DNA from: Lachnospiraceae bacterium UBA3801
GTDB taxonomy: Bacteria > Bacillota > Clostridia > Lachnospirales > Lachnospiraceae
Length of the DNA stretch: 13,382 nucleotides
Direction: 5' to 3'
Assembly (NCBI GenBank): GCA_002368685.1
Contig: DFEN01000103.1
Location: 1-13,382, forward strand
The position numbers and the translations under genes were made by a program. Positions within the stretch are counted from its first letter, which is position 1; the number at the start of each line of letters is the position of its first letter. Positions 6 through 13,382 of this stretch are shown here, in pieces. The notes beneath the pieces are model-generated. The model did not search any database, was not told where the DNA came from, and saw only the letters and a list, made by a program, of their open reading frames with translations.

Positions 6-67
6 TATGCAAATAGGGACGTTTCTGTTTTGCACATATGCAAAACAGAAACGTCCCTATTTGCATA
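6..67. repeat. Perfect inverted pair of REP-like repeats
   Basis: Two copies of the repeat family face each other: 6-34 reads forward (TGCAAATAGGGACG start, GTTTTGCA end) and 39-67 is its exact reverse complement, with a 4-nt loop CATA at 35-38. The 29-bp arms pair perfectly, so the element can form a long hairpin in RNA or a cruciform in DNA. It lies upstream of the first CobW gene's promoter. The short tail after it has no clear U-tract, so it is not a convincing intrinsic terminator. The same unit recurs around the RAYT gene at 11110-12231. Confidence 0.93.
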
Positions 68-8448: not shown

Positions 8449-9033
8449 ATGAGAAAATATATGCTTAGAGGTATCGGTATAGGTATTCTTATTGGAGCCG
8501 GTGTTATGTACGGTGCATTTGCCACAATCGGTACTGAGGATAAAGGTAAGAATGATAAGGCAGTAGTTGAGACAACAGAGGAAGAGACAACCGAGACAAC
8601 TACTGAAGAAGAAACTACTGAGGCTACTACAGAAGCTACCACTGAGGCAACTACTGAAGCGACCACAGAGGAGGAAACCACTGAGGCTACTACAGAAGCT
8701 ACCAATGAGGAAGTAACTACTGAAGCAACTACAGAGGAAACCACTGAGGCTCAGCCTGAGGAAGAGAAGACCGAGGACAAAGAGGAGAAGAAAGAGGACA
8801 AGAAGGAAGACAAGGCTTCTGGCGATAAGGAGATAACAGTTACTTCCGGAATGACTTCTGAAAATATTGCTTCATTACTGGAGCAGGCAGGACTTGTTGA
8901 TTCTGCAACTGAGTATAACTCATGGCTTATCTCAAAGGGATATGATTCAAATCTGCACATTGGTACATTTAAAATCAAGTCTGGTGCAAGCAACGAAGAG
9001 ATAGCTAAGATCCTTACTACTCAGGGAGAGTAA
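8449..9033 (+). CDS. Small MltG/YceG-like membrane protein, catalytic domain absent
   Basis: A 194-residue protein with an N-terminal membrane helix (about 6-26), a Thr/Glu low-complexity spacer (41-101) built on a repeated TTEA tetrapeptide, a Lys/Glu/Asp-rich stretch (102-127), and a C-terminal domain (128-192): ITVTSGMTSENIASLLEQAG ... NSWLISKGYDS...GTFKIKSGASNEEIAKILT. That domain resembles the LysM-like N-terminal subdomain of MltG/YceG lytic transglycosylases. The catalytic part of MltG (full length about 340 residues) is missing, so no transglycosylase activity is expected. It may bind peptidoglycan or a partner outside the membrane. The preceding gene supplies the ribosome binding site (GGGAGAG just before its stop), so the two are cotranslated. 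A terminator follows. Confidence 0.75.
   Translation: MRKYMLRGIGIGILIGAGVMYGAFATIGTEDKGKNDKAVVETTEEETTETTTEEETTEATTEATTEATTEATTEEETTEATTEATNEEVTTEATTEETTEAQPEEEKTEDKEEKKEDKKEDKASGDKEITVTSGMTSENIASLLEQAGLVDSATEYNSWLISKGYDSNLHIGTFKIKSGASNEEIAKILTTQGE
8569..8751 (+). repeat. Tandem TTEA-coding low-complexity repeat
   Basis: Inside the MltG-like gene, an imperfect 12-bp unit (ACTACTGAGGCT-type, encoding Thr-Thr-Glu-Ala or Thr-Thr-Glu-Glu) is repeated many times. It makes an extended spacer between the membrane helix and the C-terminal domain. Such a tract can change length by replication slippage. It also produces a long open frame on the opposite strand that is not a gene. Confidence 0.85.
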
Positions 9034-10006: not shown

Positions 10007-11107
10007 ATGGCTATTACAGCAGCAGACGTTAAGAAACTTAGAGAGATGACAGGCGCTGGTATGATGGATTGTAAGAAGGCTCTTACAGAGACAGACGGCG
10101 ACTTTGATGGCGCAGTTGAGTTCCTTCGTAAGAAGGGTCTTGCAACAGCAGAGAAGAAGGCTGGTAGAATCGCAGCTGAGGGTATCGTTGCAACAGTTCT
10201 TTCAGATGATAACAAAACAGCTACTATCATTGAGGTTAACTCAGAGACAGACTTCGTTGCTAAAAATGAAGTATTCCAGACATATGTAAATGGTCTTGCT
10301 ACACAGATTAATAATAATGATTATGCAGATATGGCTGCATTTATGGCAGCTAAGTCAGATATAGATTCTGCTTCAACTGTAGAAGAGTATCACAAGGCTA
10401 TGGTTGCTAAGATAGGTGAGAACCTTACAATTCGTCGTTTTGAAAAGCTTACAGGCGACGTTGTTGTTTCTTACATTCACATGGGCGGTAAGATTGGTGT
10501 TCTTGTAGAAGCTCAGGCTGATCAGACAGGTGATGCTATAACAGAGGCTATGAAGAACGTAGCTATGCAGATCGCAGCAATGAATCCACAGTATGTATCA
10601 AGAGATGAGATCTCAGCTGATACACTTGCTAAGGAGAAGGAAATCGTAATAGACAGCTCACTCGCTGATCCTGCTTCACTTCCAAAGCCAATCCTTAATG
10701 CAGTTATTACTGAGGCTATTGATTCAAATAAGTGGAGCGATGCTGATAAGGCTGCTTATGAAGAGCAGAAGACAAACAAGTTCTGGTATAACTTCATTTC
10801 AGATGAGGGTATGCAGGTTCTTAGAGATATCGCATCAGATCACAAGGCTGAGTACCTTGATAACAAGATCTTCGCTGGTCTTGTAGAGGGACGTTTTGCT
10901 AAGCACCTTAAGGAGATCTGCCTTGTAGATCAGGCTTATGTAAAGGCTGAGGACAAGGAAAACGTTAAGCAGTACGTTGAGAAGGTTGCTAAGGAGACAG
11001 GTTCTAACTTCGCTATCAAGAGCTTCATCAGATATGAGACAGGTGAAGGCCTTGAAAAGAAGAACGAAGACTTCGCAGCAGAAGTTGCAGCTCAGATGGG
11101 CCAGTAA
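10007..11107 (+). CDS. tsf: Translation elongation factor Ts, with insertion
   Basis: Guanine nucleotide exchange factor that recharges EF-Tu with GTP. The N-terminal UBA domain (VKKLREMTGAGMMDCKKAL, 8-26) and the signature TDFVAKN (81-87) are present. The C-terminal end GEGLEKKNEDFAAEVA is typical of clostridial EF-Ts. The protein has 366 residues, whereas most bacterial EF-Ts have about 280-315. The excess lies between EKEI (210-213) and VEGRFAKHLKEICLVDQ (293-309): about 80 residues stand where related proteins have roughly 25. The frame stays open and codon use looks uniform, so this seems a true in-frame insertion, not a frameshift. AAGGAGG at 9991-9997 supports the start. Three REP-like repeats and a terminator follow the stop. 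Confidence 0.96.
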   Translation: MAITAADVKKLREMTGAGMMDCKKALTETDGDFDGAVEFLRKKGLATAEKKAGRIAAEGIVATVLSDDNKTATIIEVNSETDFVAKNEVFQTYVNGLATQINNNDYADMAAFMAAKSDIDSASTVEEYHKAMVAKIGENLTIRRFEKLTGDVVVSYIHMGGKIGVLVEAQADQTGDAITEAMKNVAMQIAAMNPQYVSRDEISADTLAKEKEIVIDSSLADPASLPKPILNAVITEAIDSNKWSDADKAAYEEQKTNKFWYNFISDEGMQVLRDIASDHKAEYLDNKIFAGLVEGRFAKHLKEICLVDQAYVKAEDKENVKQYVEKVAKETGSNFAIKSFIRYETGEGLEKKNEDFAAEVAAQMGQ

Positions 11108-11109
11108 AC

Positions 11110-11200
11110 TATGCAAATAGGGACGTTTCTGTTTTGCACATATGCATATAGGGACGGTTCTGTTTTGCATATATGCAAATAGGGACGCTTCTCATTTGCA
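11110..11200 (+). repeat. Three direct REP-like repeats, 31-bp period
   Basis: Copies start at 11110, 11141 and 11172, each 29 bases plus a 2-base spacer, all in the same orientation. Their cores read GGGACGTTTCT, GGGACGGTTCT and GGGACGCTTCT between TGCA(A/T)A and TTTGCA arms. They begin 2 bases after the tsf stop and precede the tsf terminator, so they are in the tsf 3' untranslated region. Confidence 0.93.
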
Positions 11201-11223
11201 TATATGATAAATGAATAGTAACG

Positions 11224-11261
11224 AATGAGTCATAAGGTGTATAGCCTTATGGCTCATTTTT
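11224..11261 (+). terminator. Intrinsic terminator of rpsB-tsf
   Basis: A 14-bp stem (11224-11237 with 11245-11258, one G-T pair) around a 7-base loop TGTATAG, followed by TTTTT. It is strong and correctly placed for tsf, but separated from its stop by the three repeats. No gene is seen from 11108 to 11395; the rest of that stretch is repeats and A/T-rich DNA with a small GCAAC-GATTT-GTTGC hairpin at 11279-11293. Confidence 0.9.
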
Positions 11262-11308
11262 GCTATTTAGGAAAAAATGCAACGATTTGTTGCGTTATAC
11301 AAACTAAT

Positions 11309-11368
11309 TGTGCAAATAGGGACGTTTCTGTTTTGCACATATGCAAATGGGGACGGTTCTCATTTGCA
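11309..11368 (+). repeat. Two direct REP-like repeats before the RAYT gene
   Basis: Copies start at 11309 (TGTGCAAATAGGGACG, core GGGACGTTTCT) and 11340 (TGCAAATGGGGACG, core GGGACGGTTCT), again exactly 31 bases apart and in the same orientation as those at 11110-11200. The second ends 27 bases before the RAYT start codon. Confidence 0.92.
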
Positions 11369-11395
11369 CATATCAAGTGAAGGAGGGGGATTATT

Positions 11396-12136
11396 ATGCC
11401 AAGAACGGCAAGAAAACAAGGAAAAACGGGATTCTATCATATTATTACTAGGGGAAATGCTAAACAAATACTATTTGAAGATAACAAAGATTACAGCTTT
11501 TATATTTATTTGATTAGCAAATTTAGTAGAGAAATGGGCATAGCAATTAATGCTTATTGCCTTATGGACAATCATGTACATTTATTAGTGTATGATCCAG
11601 TGTTTAACATTTCACAAATGATGAAAAAAATCGATGTAACATACGCGAAATATTATAATGAAAAGTATGAGAGAGTGGGACATCTGTTTCAAGGGAGGTT
11701 TCTCAGTGAGGAAATTGATAATGAATCATATCTTTTGACAGCATTTAGATATATATTGCAAAATCCTGAAAAGGCTGGGGTGGCTATTGCATCTGAATAT
11801 AAGTGGAGTAGTTACAGATATTATGATACAATTAACTCGTTTGTAGACACAAGTGTTTTCACCGCTTTAATAGGTGATTGGAAAAACTATACTACTTTTA
11901 TTTCTTTACAAAATAGTGATAAATGTATGGAATTTGATACATTATCCAATGATGATGATTGGGCACTTACTGTTTTAAGGAATACAATTAGTGTTAGTAG
12001 TGGTACGGCTTTACAAAAATTAAGCAAACACGAAAGGGATAAATGTATTCGTAAGCTAAGAGATAAAGGACTTACAATTACTCAAATTGCAAGATTTACA
12101 GGTTTAAATAGAAATACTGTTTCTCAGGCAAAATAA
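11396..12136 (+). CDS. REP-associated tyrosine transposase (RAYT, Y1/HUH)
   Basis: An IS200-like Y1 nuclease domain of 246 residues, intact. GFYHIITRGN (12-21) opens the fold. MDNHVHLLV (58-66) carries the HUH metal pair H60/H62. The candidate nucleophile is Y119 in AFRYILQNPEKAG (116-128). HLFQGRF (96-102) and WSSYRYY (137-143) are typical of the RAYT branch. The C-terminal part (about 209-246), SKHERDKCIRKLRDKGLTITQIARFTGLNRNTV in essence, looks like a helix-turn-helix for DNA recognition. RAYTs in other bacteria cut single-stranded REP hairpins. Here eight repeat copies flank the gene. GGAGGGGG at 11382-11389 is its ribosome binding site. The coding sequence is visibly more A/T-rich than its neighbours, with TTA and ATA codons, suggesting transfer. 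Confidence 0.9.
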   Translation: MPRTARKQGKTGFYHIITRGNAKQILFEDNKDYSFYIYLISKFSREMGIAINAYCLMDNHVHLLVYDPVFNISQMMKKIDVTYAKYYNEKYERVGHLFQGRFLSEEIDNESYLLTAFRYILQNPEKAGVAIASEYKWSSYRYYDTINSFVDTSVFTALIGDWKNYTTFISLQNSDKCMEFDTLSNDDDWALTVLRNTISVSSGTALQKLSKHERDKCIRKLRDKGLTITQIARFTGLNRNTVSQAK

Positions 12137-12138
12137 AA

Positions 12139-12231
12139 TATGCAAATAGGGACGGTTCTTATTTGCATATAGGCAAAAGAGAAACGTCCCCATTTGCATA
12201 TGTGCAAAAGAGAACCGTCCCTATTTGCATA
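12139..12231. repeat. Three REP-like repeats after RAYT, one forward and two reversed
   Basis: The first copy (12139-12167) is forward, core GGGACGGTTCT, beginning 2 bases after the RAYT stop. The next two (12172-12200 and 12203-12231) are reversed and 31 bases apart, reading AGAAACGTCCCC and AGAACCGTCCCT. The outer end TTTGCATAGT is the mirror of the ACTATGCAAA at 11108-11117, so the RAYT block is bounded by inverted ends. Confidence 0.92.
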
Positions 12232-12251
12232 GTACTAATAAGGAGAAGATG

Positions 12252-13313
12252 ATGGTAGATTATACAGAGATACTTACAAATGTTGATGTGGATGCAGTGC
12301 TTATAACGGATCCATATAATTTAAGGTACTATACTGGCTTCCGTGGTGGAGAGGGCGTGGCGCTTATTTCGAAGGGTTCAAAGATACTCATAACTGACTC
12401 GAGGTACACAGAAGCTGCTGGAAAGGAATGCTATGAAGGCTTTATGGTAAGACAGTTTGGAAATGGTATCTCCACGATAAGTATCATCAAAGAGTACATT
12501 TCTTCTGATGGTATAAATACTCTTGGCTTTGAGGATATGTCTATAAGCTATAGTGATTATCAGAAGTTTTCAGGTGGGCTTGGATGTGAAATGAAGCCTA
12601 TAAAGGACGCACTCCTTATTCCAAGACAAATTAAGTCGCCTGAGGAGATAGAACTTCTCCGTGAGGCAGAGCATATCGGCGATATGGCATTTGACGATAT
12701 TCTTAGTATATTAAAGCCTGGTATGACCGAGCTCGAGGTTGCAGCAGAGATAGAATACAGTATGAAAAGACATGGTGCAGAGGGACTTTCCTTTGATACG
12801 ATTGCGGCGTCTGGGGTAAATTCTTCCATGCCTCATGCGATTCCTTCTGATAAGAAGCTAGAAAATGGCGATTTTCTTACAATGGATTTTGGGTGCATTT
12901 ATAAGGGGTATTGCTCTGATATGACCAGAACTGTTTGTATAGGTAAGGCTAGTGATGAGCAGAAGAAAGTTTATAACATAGTTTTATCTGCACAGCTTTC
13001 AGTGCTTGAAAATCTTAAACCTGGTATGATGTGTAAGGATGTAGATAGAATAGCAAGAGATTACATAAATGCTCAAGGGTATGGTGATTACTTTGGTCAT
13101 GGACTGGGGCATGGCGTTGGACTTTACATTCACGAGTCCCCAGCATTTAACACTCGCGATACTTCGATTGTTAAGCCGGGTATGATAGAAACAGATGAGC
13201 CGGGAATATATTTGCCAGGTAAATTTGGTGTTCGTATAGAAGATATGATTCTAATTACAAAAAATGGTTGTGAACCACTTGCAAGATCACCTAAAGAACT
13301 TATTGAACTCTAA
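12252..13313 (+). CDS. Xaa-Pro aminopeptidase, M24 family
   Basis: A cytosolic metallopeptidase of 353 residues, a usual size for Firmicute PepP/YpdF/YqhT-type enzymes, releasing N-terminal residues ahead of proline. The N-terminal creatinase-like domain (1-125; LRYYTGFRGGEG, LITDSRY) is followed by the pita-bread fold with all five expected dinuclear metal ligands: D212 (MDFG), D223 (SDMTRT), H287 (GHGLGHGVG), E316 (DEPGIYLPG) and E330 (VRIEDM). AAGGAG at 12240-12245 fits ATG 12252, or ATG 12249 with a short spacer; an earlier TTG at 12225 lies inside a repeat. No promoter is visible between the RAYT stop and this gene other than repeats. PepP can be followed by efp in this group, but the window ends. 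Confidence 0.93.
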   Translation: MVDYTEILTNVDVDAVLITDPYNLRYYTGFRGGEGVALISKGSKILITDSRYTEAAGKECYEGFMVRQFGNGISTISIIKEYISSDGINTLGFEDMSISYSDYQKFSGGLGCEMKPIKDALLIPRQIKSPEEIELLREAEHIGDMAFDDILSILKPGMTELEVAAEIEYSMKRHGAEGLSFDTIAASGVNSSMPHAIPSDKKLENGDFLTMDFGCIYKGYCSDMTRTVCIGKASDEQKKVYNIVLSAQLSVLENLKPGMMCKDVDRIARDYINAQGYGDYFGHGLGHGVGLYIHESPAFNTRDTSIVKPGMIETDEPGIYLPGKFGVRIEDMILITKNGCEPLARSPKELIEL

Positions 13314-13315
13314 AA

Positions 13316-13382
13316 TGAGTAAATAGTGTCGTTTCTATTTTGCTCAAAAAGTGAGTAAATAAGAACCGTCCCTATTTGCATA
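13316..13382. repeat. Divergent inverted pair of REP-like repeats
   Basis: A decayed forward copy (13316-13346; GTGTCGTTTCT core, arms TGAGTAAATAG and CTATTTTGCTCA) faces a reversed copy (13352-13382; AGAACCGTCCCTATTTGCATA). The inner arms have GAGTAAAT in place of GCAAAT. The pair begins 2 bases after the peptidase stop and runs to the window edge, so it may be incomplete. Confidence 0.85.

Follow-up and report, generated by a model that had tools for sequence, protein, structure and literature searches.

A TIRYT-type RAYT in a Lachnospiraceae genome and the fixed-core hairpin repeats that are probably its cognate family

How RAYTs recognize their repeats and spread them is not settled, and the literature consulted here approaches it mainly through GTAG systems. 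The locus analysed here poses this question for a RAYT gene enclosed by hairpin units of another form: do the gene and the units belong together, or do they merely lie side by side? The window, by which we mean the whole stretch of 13,382 nucleotides, is the entire contig C153 of the draft genome G000 (1,640,035 bases in 177 contigs, 71% complete), and both ends of this contig fall in repeat copies. The interval 11110-12231 represents the entire cassette, that is, the RAYT gene together with its flanking repeats (Table 1). An earlier sequence-only reading had linked the enzyme with the repeats from adjacency and had proposed an unstudied RAYT system that seeds intergenic regions. We consider it probable that the window carries a TIRYT-type RAYT and a cognate family of REP-like hairpins, which this RAYT would bind, cut, spread and rewrite.

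Table 1. Repeat units and RAYT gene of the window (positions of the whole 13,382-nucleotide stretch)
Feature	Position	Strand	Core	Remarks
Inverted unit pair, REPIN-like	6..67	.		29-nt arms 100% complementary, 4 nt between
Repeat unit	11110..11140	+	GGGACGTTTCT, 11120-11130	TGCAAA arms
Repeat unit	11141..11171	+	GGGACGGTTCT, 11151-11161	
Repeat unit	11172..11202	+	GGGACGCTTCT, 11182-11192	
Repeat unit	11309..11339	+	GGGACGTTTCT, 11319-11329	
Repeat unit	11340..11370	+	GGGACGGTTCT, 11350-11360	Closest to RAYT start
RAYT/TIRYT gene	11396..12136	+		HUH/Y1 domain at residues 14-122 by Pfam; H60, H62, Y119; C-terminal helical region
Repeat unit	12139..12169	+	12149-12159	Directly past RAYT stop; arms perfectly palindromic
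Inverted repeat unit	12170..12200	-	12180-12190	
Inverted repeat unit	12201..12231	-	12211-12221	
Degenerate unit	13316..13346	+	GTGTCGTTTCT	Left arm TGAGTA-type
Hybrid unit	13352..13382	-		Core between a TGCAAA-type and a TGAGTA-type arm

The RAYT gene is an intact open reading frame of 246 codons for amino acids, and its ATG is preceded by GAAGGAGGGGG. Its product matches Pfam Y1_Tnp (E 2.8e-14) and has NHVH at residues 59-62 and Y119-ILQ-NP, in other words, a HUH motif plus a single Tyr with the Y---NP pattern. Across an alignment of 23 sequences (the window protein and 22 homologues) there is no variation at H60, H62, Y119, N123 or P124. With the AlphaFold2 model (mean pLDDT 89.3) as query, the top Foldseek match is the E. 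coli TnpAREP-hairpin complex 4er8 (E 1.2e-7, TM 0.75 by target), followed by the IS608 and ISDra2 transposases; 4er8 was not significant (E 0.48) in a sequence-only search. Helices are modelled at residues 211-223, 228-235 and 239-243, and residues 217-244 give a weak HTH_23-like match (E 4.9e-4, 20.3 bits, under the cut-off of 24.6). Against NF047646, the NCBIfam model of REP-associated tyrosine transposases, the protein scores 54 bits (E 1.6e-14). Since this is under the curated cut-off of 80, the protein is, as judged by score, a relative of that family and not a member of the model. The earlier description of an intact HUH/Y1 protein is borne out.

The repeat units of the cassette are just as had been described, five upstream and three downstream of the RAYT. 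Further copies had been placed at 6-67 and 13316-13382; both are present, but the latter stretch holds a degenerate and a hybrid unit. Each unit consists of an arm, a fixed 11-nt core (GGGACGGTTCT) and a complementary arm, that is, a hairpin with variable self-complementary arms. The genome-wide count is above chance, as there are 58 exact copies of the core GGGACGNTTCT in the 1.64 Mb draft versus 3 for the reversed pattern. The TGCAAA/TTTGCA arms reported at first are found on the cassette units, but they are not the sole type: G000 also has TGAGTA/TACTCA arms on the same core. Rfam gave no match in the window at gathering cut-offs. A terminator-like hairpin is present at window 11223-11259, between the third and the fourth repeat units. 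It is perhaps the tsf terminator, and therefore the repeat units would straddle it.

To describe the arms more fully, we classified 204 units from stretches of G000, G265 and G287, three closely related genomes. Both arms are TGCAAA-type in 50 units (A-A') and TGAGTA-type in 120 (B-B'); 3 units mix the two types, and the remaining 31 are degenerate, intermediate or other. Type A (TATGCAAATA...TATTTGCATA) and type B (TGAGTAAATA...TATTTACTCA) differ at three stem positions, and in each case the partner base is changed too. Stem pair 3 is either A-T (129 units) or T-A (50), pair 5 is either T-A (124) or C-G (53); the pattern is less sharp at pair 2. The paired fraction of the arms is 0.794 versus 0.729 +/- 0.006 with right arms shuffled (the maximum of 1000 shuffles being 0.747). 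There is also a third arm type, TGAGCAAA/TTTGCTCA (L006, L210, L268), which is one paired change away from each of the TGTGCAAA and TGAGTAAA arms. Units are arranged singly, in 31-bp tandems or as inverted pairs. Among the loci analysed, nine same-strand pairs are less than 28 nt apart, and in four of them (L243, L263, L305, L315) the core runs straight into the next left arm. These half-unit tandems hint at joining right after TTCT, although slippage could also give them. The GTAG-hairpin form, already thought to be lacking, is indeed not seen in units from the three genomes: GT[AG]G stands at the 5' foot of the stem in 0 of 202 and at the 3' foot in 1 of 202. Strand-specific folding was considered as well, but the core strand and the reverse strand are predicted to fold about equally well, which leaves strand choice unexplained; of eight units examined, one was predicted to adopt another fold than the one drawn. 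Some units read TTTTGCACA, compatible with the DnaA-box consensus quoted in the accessible text of PMC6006769, but since other genera have different arms, a reading of the units as DnaA boxes was set aside.

The link between the RAYT and the repeats turned out to be stronger than adjacency. It is supported by the presence of the core beside related RAYT genes, by arm type tracking RAYT version at one locus and by dispersed copies that match best the arms of their own RAYT in 7 of 12 genomes. Among named genomes there are at least 582 relatives of the RAYT, of which the best 80 were analysed. These are mostly from Bacillota (Butyrivibrio, Oribacterium, Syntrophomonas, Pelosinus, Desulforamulus and others), and a few are titled Treponema, Prevotella, Coriobacteriaceae, Atribacteria and the like. 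An inverted repeat across the gene is detectable in 62 of these 80, and 59 of the 62 contain GGGAC. With a stricter definition, the core is found within 400 nt of the RAYT gene in 59 of 81 loci (the best 80 plus the window): 45 have it both upstream and downstream, 14 have it on a single side, and the other 22 lack it. In control windows 1.3-1.8 kb from the RAYT, it is found in 2 of 63 loci. The core recurs next to RAYTs with identity as low as about 35%. Arms vary among RAYTs, but their self-complementarity is kept: for the arms nearest the gene, the mean longest complementary run is 5.40 compared with 3.05 +/- 0.13 for shuffled arms (shuffled maximum 3.47; 58 loci with a usable copy). Comparison across loci thus shows a recurrent core surrounded by palindromic arms that vary with the RAYT. 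Arm similarity shows a partial rank correlation of 0.19 with the RAYT N-terminal domain (0 of 300 permutations) and of 0.10 with the C-terminal domain (2 of 300), both over 2926 pairs of 77 loci, one of which is a duplicate record. At L169, L170 and L171 (G286, G297 and G255), where the RAYTs are 36-39% identical, the units are laid out differently, with two GGGACGGTTCT cores in inverted orientation separated by 9 nt. Core copies in these genomes number 33-155, with 155 in the complete genome G255. A replication-strand bias of cores was considered for G255 and dropped, as + and - pairs are both present.

G000 encodes a second Y1 protein, 49% identical to the window RAYT (L001 on contig C5, 1465-2205). 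The inverted pair that comes after it is of another kind, with GGGACAGTCCCC/GGGACGGTTCC as its basis, and a cassette nearly identical to L001 (96% DNA identity) is present in G265. An even closer comparison is offered by G287. Its contig L161 carries tsf, TGCAAA units and a 98%-identical RAYT1, right past which the contig ends. Contig L160 carries the peptidase gene and a 79%-identical RAYT2 with TGAGTA units at positions matching the window cassette. At the nucleotide level, identity between G287 and the window is 96.2% for tsf, 98.9% for RAYT1, 93.4% for the peptidase gene and 80.2% for RAYT2. In other words, arms at RAYT2 are changed from TGCAAA to TGAGTA with the core the same and complementarity kept, so that the comparison shows a joint change of RAYT and arms at one locus. 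RAYT1 and RAYT2 of G287 are either in tandem or come from two strains binned together. They share 92% identity in residues 1-143 and 65% in residues 144-246. The resulting ratio of differences, 4.17, can be set against a background of 253 pairs (median 1.38, maximum 2.49), which are more diverged, and this lowers their ratio. The corresponding dN/dS is 0.06 in the Y1 domain and 0.20 in the C-terminal part. On account of the ratio we considered the C-terminal domain as the arm reader, yet across loci arms track the N-terminal domain more.

The fate of individual sites was followed in 37 comparisons of 23 distinct orthologous sites between the three close genomes. As the stretches were picked for carrying repeats, how often a site has repeats in both genomes cannot be taken as an unbiased rate. 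The arm type is swapped in 10 of the 37 comparisons, corresponding to 8 of the 23 sites, one of which is the RAYT2 flank itself; swaps between G000 and G265 are seen at 4 sites. Among the other comparisons, 14 show a change in unit number, 11 have the same composition and 2 have no unit in the other genome, both of the latter adjoining swapped or degenerate units. Because the arm type differs at 8 of 23 orthologous sites, arm families seem to replace one another in place. The swaps could also represent homologous exchange between genomes. Changes from a single unit to a pair resemble deletions between short direct repeats. No clean insertion junction was found; adding 20 repeat-free G000 contigs gave an empty site in 2 of 20 comparisons, both at one site that is empty in G000, and the intergenic region there is diverged. 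According to naive ORF calls, 3 of 188 copies are inside an ORF, though ORFs cover 86-88% of bases, and of the 79 clusters 45 have co-directional neighbour genes, 33 convergent and 1 divergent ones. A dispersed and nearly always intergenic family, as proposed from the window alone, is what comparison shows, and it may well have been spread by the RAYT itself.

Do dispersed copies match the RAYT of their own genome? For 12 genomes, among which G000, G287 and G265 are related, we compared the arms of 3 to 19 distinct dispersed copies per genome with the arms at the RAYTs. The arms of the own RAYT rank first of 12 in seven genomes (G287, G089, G073, G045, G083, G079 and G255) and second in G000, which has both arm types but, in its assembled part, the TGCAAA-type RAYT only. 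The remaining four genomes show no match to their own RAYT: G265 (rank 12), G215 (11), G276 (8) and G253 (6). For G215, a possible cause may be that copies were drawn with GGGACGGTTCT while GTTTCT/GCTTCT is found in its TIR cores. The genome of G276 is 99% complete and that of G253 fully so (loci L407-L426, L162 and L164). Four of the five copies read in G276 have AAGACAG-type arms, and its RAYT is flanked by GTGCAGTG with GGGACGGACCC. The 19 copies of G253 have GCCA/TGGC-type arms, whereas one of its RAYTs has GTGCA-type arms and the other is without the core. Since copies in G265, G215, G276 and G253 mismatch, families without a matching RAYT are common.

The distribution of repeats and RAYTs among genomes gives a similarly mixed picture. 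Within the genus (61 genomes, 21 of them repeat-rich), 8 of 13 other genomes with a full-length RAYT are rich compared with 12 of 47 without (p 0.02), and 5 of the 13 are repeat-poor. When partial RAYT matches are included, the figures become 10 of 20 and 10 of 40 (p 0.08); the co-occurrence in the genus is weak. In the family (250 genomes, 26 repeat-rich including G000), a RAYT of at least 120 bits is found in 9 of the 25 other rich genomes versus 12 of the 224 remaining ones. Fourteen repeat-rich genomes of the family have no RAYT match, and eight of these have no Y1 match, among them G009 (62 copies) and G193 (28). Genome-level co-occurrence was not accepted as proof of pairing: all six genus genomes whose RAYT reaches 48% identity or more (G000 included) are rich, yet the arms in G253, G276 and G265 mismatch. 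The sequence-only reading had named, as evidence against the link, repeats equally abundant in related genomes that never had this RAYT. In part this is what is seen: a search at E<=1e-6 gave no P0001-like RAYT in 10 of the 20 repeat-rich congeners other than G000, and 4 of 12 genomes with a RAYT are mismatched. Nine of those ten congeners (all but G273) were searched for any Y1 protein. None was found in G303, G295, G282, G285 and G298, and short Y1 proteins or fragments were found in G268, G271, G281 and G284; by length and score the short proteins look like IS200 transposases. The 91% complete draft G303 has 83 core copies and no Y1 protein, with TGAGTA arms in the six units read, all from one contig (L364, L380). 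This repeat family may have outlived its RAYT. RAYT loss or assembly gaps could explain some of the missing or mismatched RAYTs.

How could such a pair work? From its family we infer that the RAYT both binds and cuts the units and is responsible for their spread. It would bind a unit as a single-strand hairpin, with the arms as the stem and the core as the loop. The HUH/Tyr centre would then cut beside the core. The cut may fall after TTCT, the point at which tandem arm-core half-units meet, and the cut ends would be joined either into new places or into resident units. In this way, the family could be spread and rewritten while the RAYT gene remains at one or two copies. New arm types might appear when a RAYT copy diverges along with its flanking units, and families might outlive their RAYT. 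A bolder extension, which we put forward only tentatively and regard as rather doubtful, is that the invariant core is a common docking and crossover site of a whole class of RAYTs. Rival arm families, each with its own RAYT, would overwrite older sites via the core and outlive their enzymes, and a duplicated RAYT would shift its specificity together with all its cassette units, amounting to mobile-element 'speciation' in one genus. Replacement through the shared core is suggested because of the swapped sites and the few hybrids (13352-13382 and its G287 counterpart).

The same observations might have been produced without any contribution of the RAYT. Units could spread and convert by replication slippage and recombination, the RAYT being domesticated for some other job and the nearby repeats being incidental. 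The single-to-pair changes, which look like short-direct-repeat deletions, agree with this explanation, and so do repeat-rich genomes with no detectable RAYT or with a RAYT whose arms differ from those of the abundant family. We nevertheless find it unlikely, as the core is enriched next to RAYTs of many genera, copies match own-RAYT arms in 8 of 12 genomes (with rank 2 of G000 counted), and RAYT version and arm type shift jointly at one locus. It is also conceivable that the host retains the hairpins because they terminate transcription at 3' ends or stabilise mRNA, and that RAYT genes merely happen to be among them. This would be in line with 78 of 79 clusters residing between convergent or co-directional genes and with sites being common to genomes while the arm sequence not always is. 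However, neither of the two terminator-like sites in window 10900-12400 is a repeat unit, and termination needs no fixed 11-nt core beside RAYTs of many genera, which makes such a role as the explanation quite improbable.

A technical explanation concerns the arm swap and the RAYT1/RAYT2 pair, which might be a binning artefact if G287 mixed two organisms. Contamination of G287 is 4%, both of its contigs end in repeats and the RAYT1-RAYT2 tandem order is not seen. Yet the swaps at 4 sites involve G000 and G265, G000 alone has both arm types and, even if RAYT2 belonged to a different organism, one cassette could still be compared between two arm types. We therefore view an artefact as very improbable.

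Returning to the TIRYT-type RAYT with a cognate repeat family, the system of the window, as judged by motifs only, fits the TIRYT class, which is TnpA-Y1 subclass 2.1 or RAYT group 1, and not the GTAG REPtron. The proposed unstudied RAYT system is consequently not of an unknown kind (PMC3733652, PMC6006769). Like the window, the TIRYTs/TIRtrons of Di Nocera et al. 2013 (PMC3733652, accessible text) have a RAYT-type Y1 HUH transposase between terminal inverted repeats, which occur in dimers and clusters and in some families are dispersed. Of the eight positions of their motif GGGGWSAS, window GGGGACGG matches 7, and this only when the last letter of the preceding arm is G; the TIR of the second G000 RAYT, GGGGACAG, matches all of them. 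In contrast to our case, the accessible text of that paper describes neither private palindromes whose loop is a fixed core nor in-place arm exchange; 'Firmicutes' and 'Clostridium' are absent from its main text (figures aside). The same text notes that, compared with RAYTs, TIRYTs may be the less productive ones. In our counts a single genome has up to 210 cores, but the copies of that genome mismatch its detected RAYT. As to subclass 2.1 (Quentin et al. 2018, PMC6006769, accessible text), the window RAYT resembles it in length (246 versus a median of 238), and in the NHVH, Y---NP and FQ motifs; the C-terminal HTH of the subclass (HTH_23/HTH_28/DnaA_C) may have its counterpart in the weak HTH_23-like match. 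Genes of this subclass are said there to have no REP-like sequences nearby, whereas the window RAYT has hairpin units. GTAG REP/REPtron systems and REPINs, according to the accessible text of PMC8266576 and PMC3116915, share with ours dispersed intergenic hairpins, inverted pairs, a low-copy HUH transposase and enzyme-specific repeats, but here there is no GTAG guide at the stem foot and the conserved sequence is between the arms. IS200/IS605 elements have the same HUH/Y1 fold. However, the several near-identical copies expected of them were not seen in the 71% complete G000, where the RAYT is present in two diverged copies.

In the literature searched, which leaves subscription literature mostly outside, we found no fixed-core/private-arm hairpin, genus copy numbers, matched RAYT pair or in-place exchange, and a search with the core letters gave no title on bacterial repeats among the matches listed. 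The natural matched pair, in which the cassette and core are the same and the arms differ, together with many RAYT/arm combinations and sites of family replacement allows direct tests of core-versus-arm recognition, of the cut site and of how new specificities originate. This test case sits in the very subclass that was reported, in the accessible text of PMC6006769, without REP-like sequences.

Several other genes of the window are worth pointing out. Two adjacent CobW-type GTPases, probably metal-handling, are encoded at 156-1286 and 1322-2353, one with a long His/Asp/Glu-rich stretch and the other fused to a C-terminal DUF1980. A short YceG-like protein (8.9e-6, under the cut-off) with a Thr/Glu-rich repeat linker is encoded at 8449-9033.
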